Below the pieces are notes generated by a model. That model made no database searches and was not told the origin of the DNA. It worked only from the letters and a program-made list of their open reading frames with translations. Shown here piece by piece: positions 50,748 to 57,301 of a stretch of 57,301 nt of DNA. The first letter of the stretch is position 1. The number at the start of each line of letters is the position of its first letter. Source of the DNA: an uncultured Lachnospira sp. (GTDB taxonomy: Bacteria > Bacillota > Clostridia > Lachnospirales > Lachnospiraceae); NCBI GenBank assembly GCA_944381165.1, contig CALWKC010000017.1, forward strand, positions 1-57,301. Reading direction: 5' to 3'. A program made the translations under genes and the position numbers.

Positions 50748-50795
50748 GGCGCGCCGCTGCGGGAGTCATGAATGCTCCCCGGCGAGCGCGCCTTT
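50748..50795. repeat. GC-rich nested hairpin before MBOAT gene
   Basis: GGCGCGC (50748-50754) pairs with GCGCGCC (50786-50792), enclosing GGGAG/CTCCC (50761-50765, 50775-50779), followed by TTT. Terminator-like but with a poor T tract. Confidence 0.5.
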
Positions 50796-50855
50796 AGCTG
50801 TACAGTCCTTAAAGAAAAATATAAAATATGTTTTAAAAAATCAGCGGAGGAACTT

Positions 50856-52451
50856 ATGGCATTTGCTTCAACAGGGTTTTTAATATTTCTGCTCGTAGGG
50901 GTAATAGTATATTATCTGATACCTAAGAGATTTCAGTGGATATGGCTTCTGATTCTGAGCTATTATTTCTATCTGTGTTCAGGTGTAAAGACTCTGGGAC
51001 TTATTATAACAACAACAGTTACGACATTTTTGGGCGGAATAATTCTTGAGCGCATTGAAGAGGGAAGGAGCGCCTATTTTAAAGCCCATAAAAATGAAAT
51101 GGCAGCCGAGGAGAAAAAGCTGTACAAAAATAAGACCAAAAAATATAAGAGGCTTATACTTGTACTTGTGCTTGTCATTAATTTTGGAATGCTGGCTGTC
51201 ATAAAGTATTATGGATTTGCGGCGGAAAATATCAACGCGCTGCTCTCTAACGTATTTCATATAAATGTGGGACTTAAGCGGATTGATTTTCTGCTGCCGC
51301 TTGGAATTTCATTTTACACGTTTCAGTCAATGGGCTATATCATTGATATGTATCAGGGAAAATATAAGGCTGACAGGAATATTTTTAAATTTGCGCTGTT
51401 TGTATCATATTTTCCGCAGATTTTACAGGGGCCGATTGGGAGATATAACAGGCTTGCGCACCAGTTTTTTGAGCGTCATTCGTTTGATTTGGTAAGAATT
51501 CAGCACGGACTTCAGCTTATGGCATGGGGCTTTTTTAAGAAAATGGTGCTTGCCGACAGAGCTGCGCTTGTGGTAACAGAGGTGTTCAGATATGTTCATC
51601 TCTATGACGGAGCAACTGTCCTGTTCGGAGTGCTTGCGTATACTCTTCAGTTATATGCCGACTTCTCGGGAGGCATGGATATAGTTATCGGAGCATCGGA
51701 AATGTTCGGCATTACGCTTGATCAAAACTTCAGGCAGCCGTTTTTTTCAAACTCAATATCGGATTTTTGGCATCGCTGGCACATAACGCTGGGAACGTGG
51801 ATGAAGGATTATGTTTTTTATCCGTTTTCGCTCTCAAAGGCAATGAATAAATTCGGGAAATTTACAAAAAAGATATTCGGGACGACTGTCGGAAGGTGTC
51901 TGCCTATCTGTGTCGCTAATCTTCTGATATTTTTTATAGTGGGCGTGTGGCACGGAGCACAGTGGAAGTATATTGCATATGGCATGTATAACGGTTTGCT
52001 TATAGCGGCAAGCAACCTTTTTGAGCCGCTTTACCCTAAAATATTTAAGGCGCTGCACATAAATCCGGAGTGCAGGGCATGGAAACTGTTCAGAATACTC
52101 AGGACGTTCTCGCTTGTTGTAATCAGCTTTTATTTCGATGTGTGCGAGAGTCTGTATGCTGCTTTATATATGATGAGAAGCACGGTTACGGGATTTTCCT
52201 TCAGTACGTTTACAGACGGCTCGCTGCTTGCGCTGGGGGTTGACAAGCAGGGAATGTGTATTATTTTTGCGGGCTGCGTAATCTGGTTTATCATAAGTCT
52301 TATTAAGGAAAAGGGAATAGACGTGAGAGCGGCTCTGGACAGAAAGCCGTGGTTTATAAGATGGGCGGTTTACGGAGCGCTTGTTCTCTCAATTCCTGTG
52401 TTCGGTAAAATCAGTGAGACAATAGGAGGCTTTATGTATGCACAGTTCTAG
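50856..52451 (+). CDS. MBOAT-family membrane O-acyltransferase (AlgI/DltB-like)
   Basis: This 531-residue protein has about eleven helices. The MBOAT motifs are clear: SISDFWHRWHITLGTWMKDY and the catalytic His in FFIVGVWHGAQWKY. AlgI/DltB/PatA-like members pass an acetyl or acyl group across the membrane to a polymer outside. ATG 50856 follows CGGAGGAA. The open frame runs upstream to 50772 without similarity. The stop overlaps the next gene by 14 bases, coupling it to the SGNH-like partner. It likely acylates the glycan encoded here. Confidence 0.93.
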   Translation: MAFASTGFLIFLLVGVIVYYLIPKRFQWIWLLILSYYFYLCSGVKTLGLIITTTVTTFLGGIILERIEEGRSAYFKAHKNEMAAEEKKLYKNKTKKYKRLILVLVLVINFGMLAVIKYYGFAAENINALLSNVFHINVGLKRIDFLLPLGISFYTFQSMGYIIDMYQGKYKADRNIFKFALFVSYFPQILQGPIGRYNRLAHQFFERHSFDLVRIQHGLQLMAWGFFKKMVLADRAALVVTEVFRYVHLYDGATVLFGVLAYTLQLYADFSGGMDIVIGASEMFGITLDQNFRQPFFSNSISDFWHRWHITLGTWMKDYVFYPFSLSKAMNKFGKFTKKIFGTTVGRCLPICVANLLIFFIVGVWHGAQWKYIAYGMYNGLLIAASNLFEPLYPKIFKALHINPECRAWKLFRILRTFSLVVISFYFDVCESLYAALYMMRSTVTGFSFSTFTDGSLLALGVDKQGMCIIFAGCVIWFIISLIKEKGIDVRAALDRKPWFIRWAVYGALVLSIPVFGKISETIGGFMYAQF

Positions 52452-53871
52452 CGGAAAGAAAAAGAAGTTTTTTGCATGGATGCGTGTTGTATTGTTTCTG
52501 GCTTGTCTTGTTGCAGTATGCTCGGCTTTTAAATTTGCTCTGATGCCTCCGAGCTATGCCAGGGTTATCATTCATGAAATGAATAAGGAGACGGACAAAT
52601 TTGACTGCATAGTGCTTGGAGCTTCTCACGGCAGAAGCGGAATTAACCCTTATAAGCTGGATGAAGAGCTTTCGTGCAATGCGCTCAATGTATGTATTCC
52701 TAACGAGACGATAAAGGATTCATATTATTTGCTGAAGGAAGCAGTAAGACATAATGATGTAAAAACTGTAATTCTCGATTTGGATTACCAGTACTGGTAT
52801 AACTTAAAGGAAAATAACTACGCGTCCAAATTTATATATGACCAGCTTGAGTTTTCTCCGGTTAAGATTCAGTATTTTTTTGAGAATCTTCTTGATGAGG
52901 ATTTCAGGGTGGCTCTCACAAGATGGGCAGGTTATACTTATCTTTACGGAAATATGCTTGATAACATAAAGACGAAGCTTTCCGAGGACTATCGGAATTA
53001 CGGTATAAACAGTGTAGACAACAGCGACGCCGGTGGTCCTTATGTCGGCAAGGGCTTCTTTTACCGCGAAAGTCCTGACGAGGATGACGGAAAGGGCTCC
53101 TACAACGGCATTGTGTTTGATGAGAGCGGTGTAGACCAGGATACGGTGAATATTTTCAGAAGAATTGTTAAATACTGTAAGAAAAAAGGTATCAGGCTGG
53201 TGTGCGTCACATCTCCGATTACTCCTGCCATGATTACCGACAGTGATTATGGCAAAGTCAATGAGTTTTTTGAAAAGCTTTGTGCGGAAGAGAATGTAGA
53301 GTTTTATGACTTTAATTTTGTCAAAGACAGCGTGCTTGAAGTCAAAAATGAAAATTTCGTAGATTATGACGGTCACATGGCTGGCGAACTGGCAGACAGA
53401 TATTCTGCCGTGCTCGGAAGTATTATTAAGAAGAGCGGAGGGAGCGAAACACAGGAGGTTGAGGCGAGGGAAAAATCTGTATCGGACAGCTTTTATTCAT
53501 CATATGAAGAGCTCTCTGAGAATATGAACACAGTTGAGCTTGCGGATATGGAAATAACGCCGTCAATACTCGGTGACGGAAAATACGCGGTATCAATAGA
53601 CGTAAAGCTGGGCGGAGGCAAAAATACAAGCCCGGAGGGAAGAATTGTCATAAAGGATATTGACTCCGGAGAAATTCTGGAGGAAACGGAATATTCAAAA
53701 AATAAAACATATTATTTTGAGTTTGACAGGGCTCGTTATATATCAGTTTACTTATACGCACGCAATTCGGGAAGCAGCGCCGAATATGACACAAAATGCA
53801 AAAAGCGCATGCTTCTCAATGACGATGCGATAAATAAATATAACGCAAAAAAAGCCAAAAAAACAAATTAA
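52438..53871 (+). CDS. SGNH-like acyltransferase partner of the MBOAT protein
   Basis: This 477-residue protein has one N-terminal membrane anchor (about 11-32) and an extracytoplasmic domain. IVLGASHGRSGINP carries the presumed nucleophile Ser and VDYDGHMAGELADRYS the D-x-x-H pair of AlgJ/DltD-type SGNH proteins. It would complete acyl transfer to the glycan using acyl groups passed by the MBOAT protein it overlaps. An extra C-terminal beta domain (about 340-450), not usual in DltD or AlgJ, may bind glycan. Confidence 0.8.
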   Translation: MHSSSGKKKKFFAWMRVVLFLACLVAVCSAFKFALMPPSYARVIIHEMNKETDKFDCIVLGASHGRSGINPYKLDEELSCNALNVCIPNETIKDSYYLLKEAVRHNDVKTVILDLDYQYWYNLKENNYASKFIYDQLEFSPVKIQYFFENLLDEDFRVALTRWAGYTYLYGNMLDNIKTKLSEDYRNYGINSVDNSDAGGPYVGKGFFYRESPDEDDGKGSYNGIVFDESGVDQDTVNIFRRIVKYCKKKGIRLVCVTSPITPAMITDSDYGKVNEFFEKLCAEENVEFYDFNFVKDSVLEVKNENFVDYDGHMAGELADRYSAVLGSIIKKSGGSETQEVEAREKSVSDSFYSSYEELSENMNTVELADMEITPSILGDGKYAVSIDVKLGGGKNTSPEGRIVIKDIDSGEILEETEYSKNKTYYFEFDRARYISVYLYARNSGSSAEYDTKCKKRMLLNDDAINKYNAKKAKKTN

Positions 53872-53926
53872 CTGCACCCGGCATTATATTTATATATGCC
53901 GGTAATGTGCAGAAATGGAGAAGAAA

Positions 53927-54667
53927 ATGCTTAATCTGGACGGAAAGCTGTCAGTAGTTATGCCTGCTTACAACGAGGAAAAGCTTATTTACAACAGTAT
54001 TATGACAACTATCTCTGTAATTTCGGGGTTTGTAAATGATTTTGAGATAGTTGCGGTGAACGACGGAAGTAAGGACAGGACAAAGGAAGAGATAAAGAGG
54101 GCGATGAAAAGTGACAGCCGTGTAAGGCTGGTGTCCTCTGATAAGAACAGAGGAAAGGGTACAGCTATAATATCAGGCGTCACGCAGGCAGAGGGAAAAT
54201 ATATCGCGTTTCTTGACGCGGATTTGGAACTGCATCCTTCTCAGCTTGAGGGGTATCTGGATAAAATGCTTGAGGACGGAGCTGACGCAGTAATAGGATG
54301 TAAATTTCATAAAGAATCGCAGCTGGAATATCCTTTAATACGTAAAATAATAAGTAAGGGATATTATGTAATGCTGCTCGTTCTGTTTCATCTTAATGTA
54401 AAGGACACGCAGACCGGGCTCAAGGTATTCAGGGCAGAGGCAATCAGACCGGTGGCGCATCTTATAAGAACATCGGGATTTGCGTACGATATTGAGCTGT
54501 TGGTGGCGCTTCACAGAAGAGGCTGCAGAATTGTTCAGATGCCTGTCAGGGTGGTCTATGTGAGGGGAAAGGACGCAAGGCGCATTGGATTTAAGGATAT
54601 TTTTTCGGCGTTTAAAGACACATGGGCAATTTTTTACAGGGTGTATTTCGAGCATTATTATGACTAA
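53927..54667 (+). CDS. DPM1-like GT2 transferase
   Basis: This 246-residue enzyme has LSVVMPAYNEEKLI, IVAVNDGSKDRTKEE, NRGKGTAIISGV, FLDADLELHPSQ and DTQTGLKVFRAEAI, the polyprenyl-phosphate-hexose synthase pattern. There are no membrane helices beyond a weak one near 140-160. It is the second such enzyme, after 37630, so a second lipid-linked sugar may be used outside the membrane. ATG 53927 is set by AAATGGAGAAG, whose own ATG (53915) is in frame. Confidence 0.88.
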   Translation: MLNLDGKLSVVMPAYNEEKLIYNSIMTTISVISGFVNDFEIVAVNDGSKDRTKEEIKRAMKSDSRVRLVSSDKNRGKGTAIISGVTQAEGKYIAFLDADLELHPSQLEGYLDKMLEDGADAVIGCKFHKESQLEYPLIRKIISKGYYVMLLVLFHLNVKDTQTGLKVFRAEAIRPVAHLIRTSGFAYDIELLVALHRRGCRIVQMPVRVVYVRGKDARRIGFKDIFSAFKDTWAIFYRVYFEHYYD

Positions 54668-54764: not shown

Positions 54765-55865
54765 ATGCATTACGATTATTTGGTGGTAGGCGCCGGTCTT
54801 TATGGCGCTGTGTTTGCACATGAGGCTAAGCAGAGGGGGAAATCATGTCTTGTAGTTGAGAAGAGAGACCATATTGCGGGAAATATATACTGTAAAAATA
54901 TCGAAAATATTAATGTTCATGTGTACGGTGCACATATTTTTCACACTTCTGACAAATTTATATGGGATTATATAAATAAATTTGCAGAGTTTAATAATTA
55001 TATCAATTCACCTATTGCAAAGTATAAAAATGAACTTTACAATCTTCCGTTTAACATGAACACCTTCAGCAAAATGTGGGGAATAAGCACTCCGCAGGAG
55101 GCGAAAGAAATTATAGCGTCGCAGATTGCTGATCTCAATATTACCGAGCCTGAAAATCTCGAGGAGCAGGCGCTGTCATTAGTGGGCAGGGATGTGTACG
55201 AAAAGCTGATAAAGGGCTACACCGAAAAGCAGTGGGGCAGGGATTGCCGTGAACTTCCGGCATTTATCATCAAGAGACTGCCGCTCAGGTTTATATACGA
55301 TAACAACTATTTTAATGACAGATACCAGGGAATTCCCGTGGGCGGCTATACGAGGATTGTCGAGAAGCTGCTGGACGGAATTGAAGTGCGCTTAAACACA
55401 GATTATCTTTTAAACAAAGAGGAACTGGATTCGCTCGCGGATAAGGTTGTCTATACGGGAATGATTGACAGGTATTATGATTACAGGCTTGGAGTTTTGG
55501 AATACCGTTCAGTGAGATTTGAGACTGAACTTATTGAGACTGATAATTTTCAGGGCAATGCTGTGGTAAATTACACCGAGCGGGAAGTGCCTTATACACG
55601 GATTATTGAGCATAAGCATTTTGAATTTGGAAAACAGCCGGTAACTGTTATTTCAAGAGAGTATTCAAGTGAGTGGAAGAAGGGCGATGAGCCTTATTAT
55701 CCTGTAAACAATGAAAAAAATGATGCTTTGTATCAGAAGTATAAGGAGCTTGCGGACAGAGAGGAACGTGTTATATTCGGAGGAAGACTTGGAAGCTACA
55801 AGTATTATGACATGGACAAGGTAATAAAGGCGGCGCTGGAAATGTGCGGCAGAGAGCTTCAGTAA
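54765..55865 (+). CDS. glf: UDP-galactopyranose mutase
   Basis: This 366-residue flavoenzyme interconverts UDP-galactopyranose and UDP-galactofuranose. The FAD-binding DYLVVGAGLYGAVFAHE start, VEKRDHIAGNIY, GAHIFHTSDKFIWDYI, GYTEKQWGRDCRELP, GYTRIVEKLL and GRLGSYKYYDMDKVI are all diagnostic. The length is normal. Galactofuranose is therefore a likely residue of the surface glycan. GGAAAGGTAAGG precedes the ATG. Confidence 0.97.
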   Translation: MHYDYLVVGAGLYGAVFAHEAKQRGKSCLVVEKRDHIAGNIYCKNIENINVHVYGAHIFHTSDKFIWDYINKFAEFNNYINSPIAKYKNELYNLPFNMNTFSKMWGISTPQEAKEIIASQIADLNITEPENLEEQALSLVGRDVYEKLIKGYTEKQWGRDCRELPAFIIKRLPLRFIYDNNYFNDRYQGIPVGGYTRIVEKLLDGIEVRLNTDYLLNKEELDSLADKVVYTGMIDRYYDYRLGVLEYRSVRFETELIETDNFQGNAVVNYTEREVPYTRIIEHKHFEFGKQPVTVISREYSSEWKKGDEPYYPVNNEKNDALYQKYKELADREERVIFGGRLGSYKYYDMDKVIKAALEMCGRELQ

Positions 55866-55875
55866 GGGAGATAGA

Positions 55876-55980
55876 TTTCCAAATAAGCCCGATGGCTTAT
55901 TTGGAAACCGCCTGTTTGTGCCGGAGCGTCACAAACAGACATTATCGCAGAAGAAAAATCGCTTTCGCGAATTTTTCTTC
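55876..55980. repeat. Chain of three hairpins (intergenic module)
   Basis: Stem 1 is 14 bp perfect (55876-55889 with 55894-55907, loop CGAT). Stem 2 pairs CTGTTTGTG (55912-55920) with 55930-55938. Stem 3 pairs GAAGAAAAAT (55950-55959) with 55971-55980, closed inside by CGC/GCG. AAACCGCCTG (55905-55914) also occurs at 34550-34559 in the other chain. Confidence 0.75.
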
Positions 55981-55982
55981 GC

Positions 55983-56020
55983 GTCTCTTCGCGATTAACC
56001 GCTCCGGAATGGAGATAACT
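55983..56020 (+). promoter_or_regulatory. Conserved 38-base leader with RBS of the sigma-like gene
   Basis: Repeat of 34575-34612 (about 30 of 38 bases), ending in GGAATGGAGATAACT directly before the ATG at 56021. Confidence 0.7.
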
Positions 56021-57301
56021 ATGGATAGACAGGATAGGGAATTGGTCAGGCTTATAAACAGTGCAAAGAAAGGAAATAAGGACAGCTTTGAACGACTGTG
56101 CGAGTTGATTTATCACGAGGTTTACAACCTTGTGGCGTTCATTTATACAAGCAAGGAGACCAGGACTAAGCTTACTAAGCATGTACTTGTAAGAATTTAT
56201 AAAAATCTTGATGATTTTGACATCAGTGAGATGGATGTTCATCTGTGGCTTGCCAGATTTACTACGCTCGAGGTGTATAGGATATGCGTAAAACAGAACG
56301 GAGAGCTTTTCGGCACCGAAATGAAAACTGCTGAATACAGATGTGAGACTGTTGAGGACGATGTCGAGCTTGCGCGCTGCGCTGCTGAATACAATGAGGC
56401 TTTTCTTGACAGAGAAAAGCTTGAGGAAATCCTGATTGATTTTAAGGACATGACTAAGGGACAGAAAATTCTCTATCAGATGTTCTGTTACGAGAGCTAC
56501 ACATTGGATGAGCTTGAGGATTTGCTTGAGGTTGACAGTACGTTTCTTGGAACACAGCTGATGGCTGTAAGAACAAAGCTCGGGCTGTCCGACATATCGC
56601 TGACAGGCGCAGGCGGACAGGATGTACTTGCTGCTGATGAGCCGGTGCAGTATGAAAAAGTAAATGATGACGCCGGTGAAACCGATTATGAGCCGTCAGG
56701 CAGAGAAAAGCTGAAAAATGCTCGGGCTGCTGCGGTTAAGAATGACGATAGTGACAAAGTTAAATCGCCTATATTAGGCTTTATTCCGGATAAGGTACTG
56801 GTGGGTATAATAACGGTTGTTACGGGACTTATTGTAATATTGTCAGTAGTGCTTGTAATTTCAATAGGAAATAATAAAAAAGAAGAAGCTAAGGGTGTTG
56901 TTAATCAGTCAAGGGCAACAGCGGCAGCTGGAGTAAACCAGACGACACAGGAGCAGAATGACGGTACGCAGGAACAGACTGCTTCTGACGAGAGTACTGA
57001 GGATACAGAGGGTCAGCAGGAGCAACAGAATACAGACGGAAACGATAACGCCCAAGAAGGAGACGGAAATACCGGAGATAACGGAAACGGCGCAGAAGGC
57101 GGCGAAGGCGGAAATACCGAAGATGAAGGGAACACCGGAGAGGGCGGCAATACCGGAGACGAAGGCGGCAGCACCGGAGATGAGGGTAATACCGGAGACG
57201 AAGGCGGCAGCACCGGAGATGAGGGCAATACCGGAGACGAAGGCGGCAGCACCGGAGATGAGGGCAATACCGGAGACGAAGGCGGCAGCACCGGAGATGA
57301 G
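56021..57301 (+). CDS. Membrane-tethered sigma-70-like protein with extracellular repeats (3' end missing)
   Basis: The frame is open for 427 codons to the window edge. Residues 1-90 (MDRQDRELVRLINSAKKGNK, SFERLCELIYHEVYNLV, LDDFDISEMDVHLWL) resemble sigma region 2, and 130-190 (KGQKILYQMFCYESYTLDEL then TQLMAVRTKLGL) resemble region 4, as in ECF sigma factors. A charged linker, one membrane helix (about 258-281) and an outside tail rich in Gln, Thr, Glu, Gly and Asn follow. From about residue 379 the tail is a 13-residue repeat, GDEGGSTGDEGNT. A sigma-like domain fixed to the membrane with an outside tail suggests surface sensing. Activity as a true sigma factor is unproven. The RBS is supplied by a repeat module. 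Confidence 0.75.
   Translation, partial: MDRQDRELVRLINSAKKGNKDSFERLCELIYHEVYNLVAFIYTSKETRTKLTKHVLVRIYKNLDDFDISEMDVHLWLARFTTLEVYRICVKQNGELFGTEMKTAEYRCETVEDDVELARCAAEYNEAFLDREKLEEILIDFKDMTKGQKILYQMFCYESYTLDELEDLLEVDSTFLGTQLMAVRTKLGLSDISLTGAGGQDVLAADEPVQYEKVNDDAGETDYEPSGREKLKNARAAAVKNDDSDKVKSPILGFIPDKVLVGIITVVTGLIVILSVVLVISIGNNKKEEAKGVVNQSRATAAAGVNQTTQEQNDGTQEQTASDESTEDTEGQQEQQNTDGNDNAQEGDGNTGDNGNGAEGGEGGNTEDEGNTGEGGNTGDEGGSTGDEGNTGDEGGSTGDEGNTGDEGGSTGDEGNTGDEGGSTGDE
57155..57301 (+). repeat. 39-bp tandem repeat within the last gene
   Basis: Units at 57155-57193, 57194-57232, 57233-57271 and a partial one from 57272 to the edge are nearly identical (single-base changes) and encode GDEGGSTGDEGNT. 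They continue beyond the window. Confidence 0.9.

Follow-up and report, generated by a model that had tools for sequence, protein, structure and literature searches.

A membrane-anchored protein with a degenerate ECF sigma-like domain, encoded beside surface-glycan genes in Lachnospira

Can a protein domain with the fold of an ECF sigma factor, carried on a membrane helix and encoded next to genes for surface-glycan synthesis, still be a sigma factor, and if not, what does it do there? The question is raised by the last gene of the window analysed here, a stretch of 57,301 bases that makes up an entire contig (C17) of the 2.57-Mb genome of an uncultured member of Lachnospira, a genus of gut bacteria. 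The features of the locus are given in Table 1. The initial annotation, made from the letters alone, described a part that binds DNA and polymerase joined to a surface-exposed part in one chain, which would have to be released by proteolysis unless it acts at the membrane, and which could sense the state of the wall or the glycan.

Table 1. Genes of the locus and parts of the sigma-like protein, in positions of the window
Feature	Position	Strand	Basis or remark
MBOAT O-acyltransferase, neighbour	50772..52451	+	Pfam 3.8e-16
477-aa protein adjoining the MBOAT gene	52438..53871	+	no Pfam match
Family 2 glycosyltransferase (GT2), neighbour	53915..54667	+	Pfam 1.5e-33
UDP-galactopyranose mutase (Glf), neighbour	54765..55865	+	Pfam GLF 6.8e-87
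ORF, membrane-anchored sigma-like protein	56021..57301	+	427 aa, open to the contig end; the gene runs on into contig C22, where it reaches a stop
Sigma region 2-like helical domain, residues 1-91	56021..56293	+	PDB, NCBIfam and family-profile matches, AlphaFold2, fold match
Sigma region 4-like helices, degenerate helix-turn-helix, residues 131-186	56411..56578	+	NCBIfam, alignment, AlphaFold2
Disordered linker without cysteine or histidine, residues 193-256	56597..56788	+	sequence, AlphaFold2
Single transmembrane helix, residues ~257-282	56789..56866	+	Kyte-Doolittle, AlphaFold2
Hydrophilic low-complexity tail, probably outside; 39-bp repeat array from 57133	56867..57301	+	sequence, repeat analysis

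The contig breaks off inside a tandem repeat in the tail of the gene (unit 39 bp, 4.3 copies, 96% match). The missing 3' end was recovered at the end of contig C22 (L058), where the same repeat occurs on the other strand and is followed by 'TGAEESSEGEDENSEDGGDQPQA' and a stop, right after 'DGGDQPQA', and then by ManC. The repeat copy number in the tail is at least 4.3, as counted in the assembled part of C17. A close relative (G020) has an intact orthologue of 486 aa, 93% identical over 286 aa, which has nearly the same ending and lies between Glf and ManC. Neither the C22 end nor this relative shows a C-terminal domain beyond the tail repeat; thus, the tail is the end of the protein, and the contig break hides no sensor domain. 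A frameshift, a chimera or an assembly fusion is ruled out by the intact orthologue and by the same order of parts in independent genomes and further species, so that the single chain that had been read from the sequence is genuine. The coding repeat (57133-57301 and the C22 end) breaks the assembly and thereby leaves the glycan cluster split over C17 and C22.

The resemblance of residues 1-190 to ECF sigma factors, over both region 2 and region 4, was confirmed by several routes. Searched alone, the domain was matched by the NCBIfam SigW model over residues 8-182 with an E-value of 1.7e-9. The single protein found the SigW structure 5wuq in the PDB with E 5e-5, whereas a profile of 18 family members reached the same entry with E 4.9e-9, together with further ECF sigma structures, and 10 of these 18 members matched the NCBIfam sigma70-ECF model with E-values of at most 0.01. 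Pfam yielded sub-threshold matches only (Sigma70_ECF, E 0.02), and its Sigma70_r2 model recognised 13 other places in this genome and missed the window protein, which must therefore be considered very divergent. The AlphaFold2 model (8 sequences, mean pLDDT 72.8) consists of confident helical domains in residues 1-190 (73-95 in blocks of 10 residues), a disordered stretch at 193-260 (under 50) and a helix at 257-289. When this model was used in a fold search, SigW:RsiW came first at 9.3e-5, followed by SigK, CnrH, sigma E and AlgU; four matches reached E 0.001, and region 2 of the model alone superposes on 2map with an rmsd of 1.3 over 83 columns. With respect to homology and fold, the protein is what one expects of a functional ECF sigma factor.

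The residues that accompany sigma function were compared between 20 family members and 20 control ECFs. The family rows comprised the 18 members of the family alignment together with those of G003 and G301, with G007 (a near-copy of G003) and the second copy of G014 excluded. The controls (12 plain ones and 8 that carry a probable membrane segment; L108 and L023 excluded) were weak matches of the family searches and hence do not form a random sample; all came from other genera, except for one plain ECF from the same genus. The helix of region 2.2 contacts the beta-prime coiled coil of the polymerase (PMC4598750). At its D and Q all 20 controls agree, whereas only one family member has the D (14 have K instead) and none has the Q; the E that follows is found in 15 of the controls and in no family member. 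The D and Q themselves are presumably important for function, as their invariance in the controls suggests; a literature check found nothing on region 2.2 residues by number. The W of region 2.3 is invariant in the controls and kept in 9 family members, the N after it occurs in 18 controls against none, and a later D and R past this W (W76) in 15 controls each against none. In the recognition helix of region 4, 19 of the 20 controls have the K and 19 the R, against 1 and 0 in the family. The eight membrane-type controls follow the plain ones in having D, Q and W in 8/8 and N, K and R in 7/8 each, but the D and R after W76 in just 4 and 5 of 8 (missing in 4 and 3). The median net charge moves from +4 in the controls to +1 in the family for the recognition helix, and from +3 to 0 for the stretch of region 2.4. 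The net acidity of the whole sigma-like domain was dropped as an argument against DNA binding, because the membrane-type controls, which retain the sigma residues, are just as acidic (median -9.5 vs -9).

Taken at the level of sequence, the family has lost the polymerase-binding signature D..Q of region 2.2 and several promoter-contact positions in regions 2.4 and 4 that the controls keep. Since these are two defining residue features, we do not class the protein as a functional ECF sigma factor, and the picture of a DNA- and polymerase-binding part that awaits proteolytic release does not agree with a loss that runs through the family. Some sigma-like features do persist. The D is left in the one member and the W in nine, K91 is retained in twelve of the 20, and position 184, an R in 18/20 controls, is R or K in all 20. 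Among the structural positions, G18 is kept in 18/20, Y35 in 16/20, and E164 and I165 in 17/20 each.

A domain that had lost its use might be expected to decay, and the pattern of substitution points elsewhere. Four closely related pairs gave dN/dS values of 0.05, 0.16, 0.24 and 0.15 for the sigma-like domain, against 0.50, 0.41, 0.36 and 0.25 for the linker; dS was very low in two of the four pairs, so that the ratios of the last two are rough. For the tail, three pairs gave 0.18, 0.67 and 2.9 (the last on very few synonymous changes), and the neighbouring Glf, ManC and YfhO genes 0.01-0.08. These ratios indicate that the sigma-like domain is under purifying selection and is not merely decaying. 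The family also shows a pattern of conservation of its own: L37 and D114 are present in 18/18 aligned members, and G18, Y106, Y157, E158 and D172 in at least 90% of the 18. The consensus YE..sVDEIE.LL.VDS covers the first helix and the turn of the region 4 motif.

The part that ties the domain to the membrane recurs in the family. A Kyte-Doolittle scan found a single hydrophobic segment in each of 21 family proteins (L007, whose contig stops before the helix, was excluded from this set), in the window protein at 260-280 with a mean of 3.05. An extracellular position of the tail would follow from the lack of a signal peptide ahead of a domain of cytoplasmic type. The positive-inside rule leans in the same direction: within flanks of 20 residues, K+R are more numerous on the N-terminal side in 12 of the 21 proteins, equal in 5 and fewer in 4, a count in which two proteins have virtually no C-terminal flank, and this weakly favours a topology with the N-terminus inside. 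The tails measure 97-231 aa in 19 of the 21 proteins, some of them being cut by contig ends, with a median of 5% hydrophobic residues and 30% T+S, compared to 11% T+S in the sigma-like domain. They differ greatly among most species, and that of the window protein is a Gly/Glu/Asp/Thr/Asn repeat with 18% T+S. In the remaining two members, one from G009 and the other a second copy in G014, the chain stops at the helix. With tails that vary or are missing, and a window protein that ends with its repeat, the supposed glycan-sensing domain at the C-terminus has to be given up; it is the inner domain, held at the membrane, that stays constant, as the two members that stop right after the helix imply. 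This short form (L044 11755-12432 and L052 4401-5171) has 226-257 aa, and in G014 it sits near a full-length copy. The two short proteins resemble each other and may represent one lineage.

The family is narrowly distributed. Its profile found a member, in the same single-chain arrangement, in 20 of the 22 genomes of the genus with E 1e-38 or better. When 299 genomes of the bacterial family were sampled (297 of them outside the genus), a single further genus, represented by G301, stood out with 3e-52, the next best match being 1e-12. An order-level sample of 392 genomes singled out the same two genera, with lesser matches of 2.8e-14 at best that were mostly ORFs of about 200 aa. An unrooted tree places the family on one side of a branch with support 100/100. 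The two genomes of the genus without the gene are G001, 99% complete, in which the profile had no match genome-wide, and G021, 85% complete, which lacks a close GT2 and a full ManC as well.

The location next to a surface-glycan region was borne out across the family. The window has the order MBOAT, 477-aa protein, GT2, Glf and sigma-like gene, and the cluster continues on C22 with ManC, c17, YfhO, c6, a GDSL-type protein and GT2. Genes for glycosyltransferases, sugar-nucleotide enzymes or YfhO lie at most five genes away in 20 of the 21 loci, where G009 was counted because its next gene belongs to the glycosyltransferase cluster c0; in the 21st (G005, a 7-kb contig) the MBOAT gene alone was recognised. 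The immediate 3' gene, in the 16 loci where one is visible, is ManC in 9, a CDP-glucose gene in 2, c17 in 2 and others in 3. It is out of view at a contig end in 4 loci, and in the window it is probably the ManC on the other contig. The labels MBOAT, GT2, Glf, ManC and YfhO were assigned from Pfam matches and from resemblance to the proteins so identified, and the labels GalE, GlmM, GtrA and CDP-glucose were given by eye, without a family search. The context is held in the other genus, where G301 has GT2-Glf-sigma-like-ManC-c17-YfhO-c6. In G001, the genes GalE-GT2-c6-YfhO-c17 are arranged as in G003 and G007, without a sigma-like gene beside c17. A strict dependence of the glycan genes on the sigma-like protein is contradicted by this genome, which, with the glycan block and without the family gene, implies that the former can do without the latter. 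Its locus (L122) offers a natural comparison.

To account for these observations, we propose that the sigma fold now serves as a binding domain, held at the membrane, for the surface-glycan machinery and is no longer a working sigma factor, a reading to which we give an even chance. The protein would be a single-pass membrane protein (tail-anchored in the two short members) with its N-terminus inside. Its cytoplasmic domain would have kept the two-lobed ECF fold while sigma-factor activity was lost, and would act at the membrane as a protein-binding module, that is, as a scaffold, recruiter or local regulator of glycan enzymes. ManC, Glf and the glycosyltransferases are candidate partners, and the long flexible linker could provide the reach towards them. 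The variable outer tail, rich in Thr and Ser in most members, would then play an accessory role, perhaps crossing the wall or carrying glycans. In its stronger form, the proposal would have the fold withdrawn entirely from transcription: tethered to the membrane in Lachnospira and one other genus, it would organise the synthesis of the surface glycan by binding glycan enzymes in place of RNA polymerase. This form is put forward tentatively and is in our judgement somewhat more likely to be wrong than right. Conserved neighbours demonstrate an association and not binding. The two genomes without a family gene count against the proposal, as do a profile match that still spans regions 2 and 4 and the sigma-like residues that persist. 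Regulators, too, often reside in the clusters under their control.

An unlikely alternative is that the domain mimics a sigma factor in the manner of PhyR, sequestering an anti-sigma factor at the membrane and so freeing a true sigma factor, by which transcription would be affected indirectly. That an ECF-like domain need not be a sigma factor is known from PhyR (PMC4598750), and the best fold matches are sigma factors bound to their anti-sigma factors (SigW:RsiW, SigK, CnrH:CnrY), but PhyR:NepR itself was reached only at rank 39 with E 0.29. Moreover, none of 10 scanned neighbours, three of which have no Pfam match at all, matches an anti-sigma family. The genome-wide search covered anti-sigma factors of the zf-HC2 type, and in ten genomes zf-HC2 showed no link to the family: members occur without a zf-HC2 match in G012 and G003, and G001 has the reverse. 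A pairing with a zinc anti-sigma factor is thus not supported. Region 2.2, which is contacted by anti-sigma factors such as RseA (PMC4598750), has itself been rewritten.

It is less probable still that the function lies in the tail. The protein would then be a product of the cluster that is exposed at the surface or spans the wall and is probably glycosylated, and the sigma-like domain would be no more than an anchor it has inherited. The length of the tails in 19/21 proteins, their median T+S of 0.30 vs 0.11 in the sigma-like domain and the YfhO-type and other glycosyltransferases nearby would fit such a role, yet the inner domain is the better conserved (compare the tail dN/dS of 0.18, 0.67 and 2.9), two of the 21 proteins do without a tail, and the window tail has just 18% T+S. 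Least probable of all is an active sigma factor that is tethered to the membrane until a signal from the wall or the glycan triggers its proteolytic release, a mechanism put forward for ECF52. In its favour are the homology to both sigma regions 2 and 4, the basic residue 184 in 20/20 members, the membrane parts of ECF48/52/53 and IutY (PMC8999054 and PMC5826349) and the ECFs with a probable membrane segment and intact sigma residues in other genera of the same bacterial family. The family-wide disappearance of the region 2.2 D..Q and the recognition-helix K/R, a chain without a zinc finger or sensor domain, a linker without Cys or His, and tails that are not conserved and are missing in two members speak against it. 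Thus, the initial observation is confirmed, whereas its interpretation is partly supported.

A comparison with known systems places the proposed reuse of the fold at the membrane in context. SigW-type ECFs share the two-lobed helical fold, as the profile and fold matches attest; the window family differs in the loss of the region 2.2 signature and several promoter contacts, in being membrane-anchored and in lacking an anti-sigma neighbour among the ten that were scanned. The remark that ordinary ECFs are soluble overlooks the membrane-fused groups ECF48/52/53 of the Actinobacteria and IutY, whose release by proteolysis is described as characterised by experiment (PMC8999054, PMC5826349). Like these (SCO4117 being one of the former), the window protein has a sigma-like domain, a C-terminal membrane helix and an outer part in one chain. 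Unlike them, it belongs to a family outside Actinobacteria and Pseudomonas, has lost the sigma residues, and shows no Pfam match in its 427 aa to a zinc-finger anti-sigma domain or to the carbohydrate-binding domain of ECF52. PhyR, the only non-sigma use of the ECF fold met in the literature considered here (PMC4598750), has an ECF-like fold that does not act as a sigma factor, a property that the window family would share if its residue losses abolish sigma function, but PhyR has a receiver domain, to which the window protein has no Pfam match, where the latter has a membrane helix. The open literature searched here yielded no paper on this family and no report of its combination of features, in which a membrane anchor carries a degenerate sigma domain, zinc finger and sensor are absent, and the gene lies in a glycan cluster. 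RodZ uses a DNA-binding-type fold inside the cell on a single-pass envelope protein. It provides an analogy of working only, as its fold is different and no RodZ-type family was among the Pfam matches.

If the reading of a membrane-held binding domain is correct, a sigma-like domain without polymerase or promoter contacts has been kept by selection at the membrane in a glycan locus, and a transcription fold has been reused for envelope work. Profile matches alone would then be poor ground for naming such genes 'RNA polymerase sigma factor'. The protein would be a candidate organiser or regulator of the surface glycan of Lachnospira, for which G001 provides the comparison species.

Two further observations concern the surroundings of the family. 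In other genera of the bacterial family, eight loci (L099-L106) encode ECFs in which the ECF-like domain is likewise followed by a probable membrane segment (peak Kyte-Doolittle 1.59-2.52) and a long C-terminal part; three of them have an N-terminal CxxC..CxxC stretch that resembles a zinc ribbon. In contrast to the window family, they keep the region 2.2 D and Q in 8/8 and N, K and R in 7/8 each, their C-terminal region is mostly non-repetitive as judged by eye, they form a separate group in the tree, and their neighbours do not match the genes of the glycan cluster, save for one weak match at L099. They are candidates for one-protein transmembrane sigma systems. A descent of the window family from such membrane-type ECFs is unsupported, as the family is not nested in them in the tree. 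The gap between Glf and the window gene (55866-56015) is filled by a structured dispersed repeat (RNA fold z -5.1) with 29 matches in the genome. These include the repeat itself and a match of 32 bases to its inverted arm, and the remaining 27 are 73-89% identical over about 50-150 bases. Rfam gave no match to this gap at the gathering threshold, and the repeat is possibly a palindromic mobile or REP-like element.
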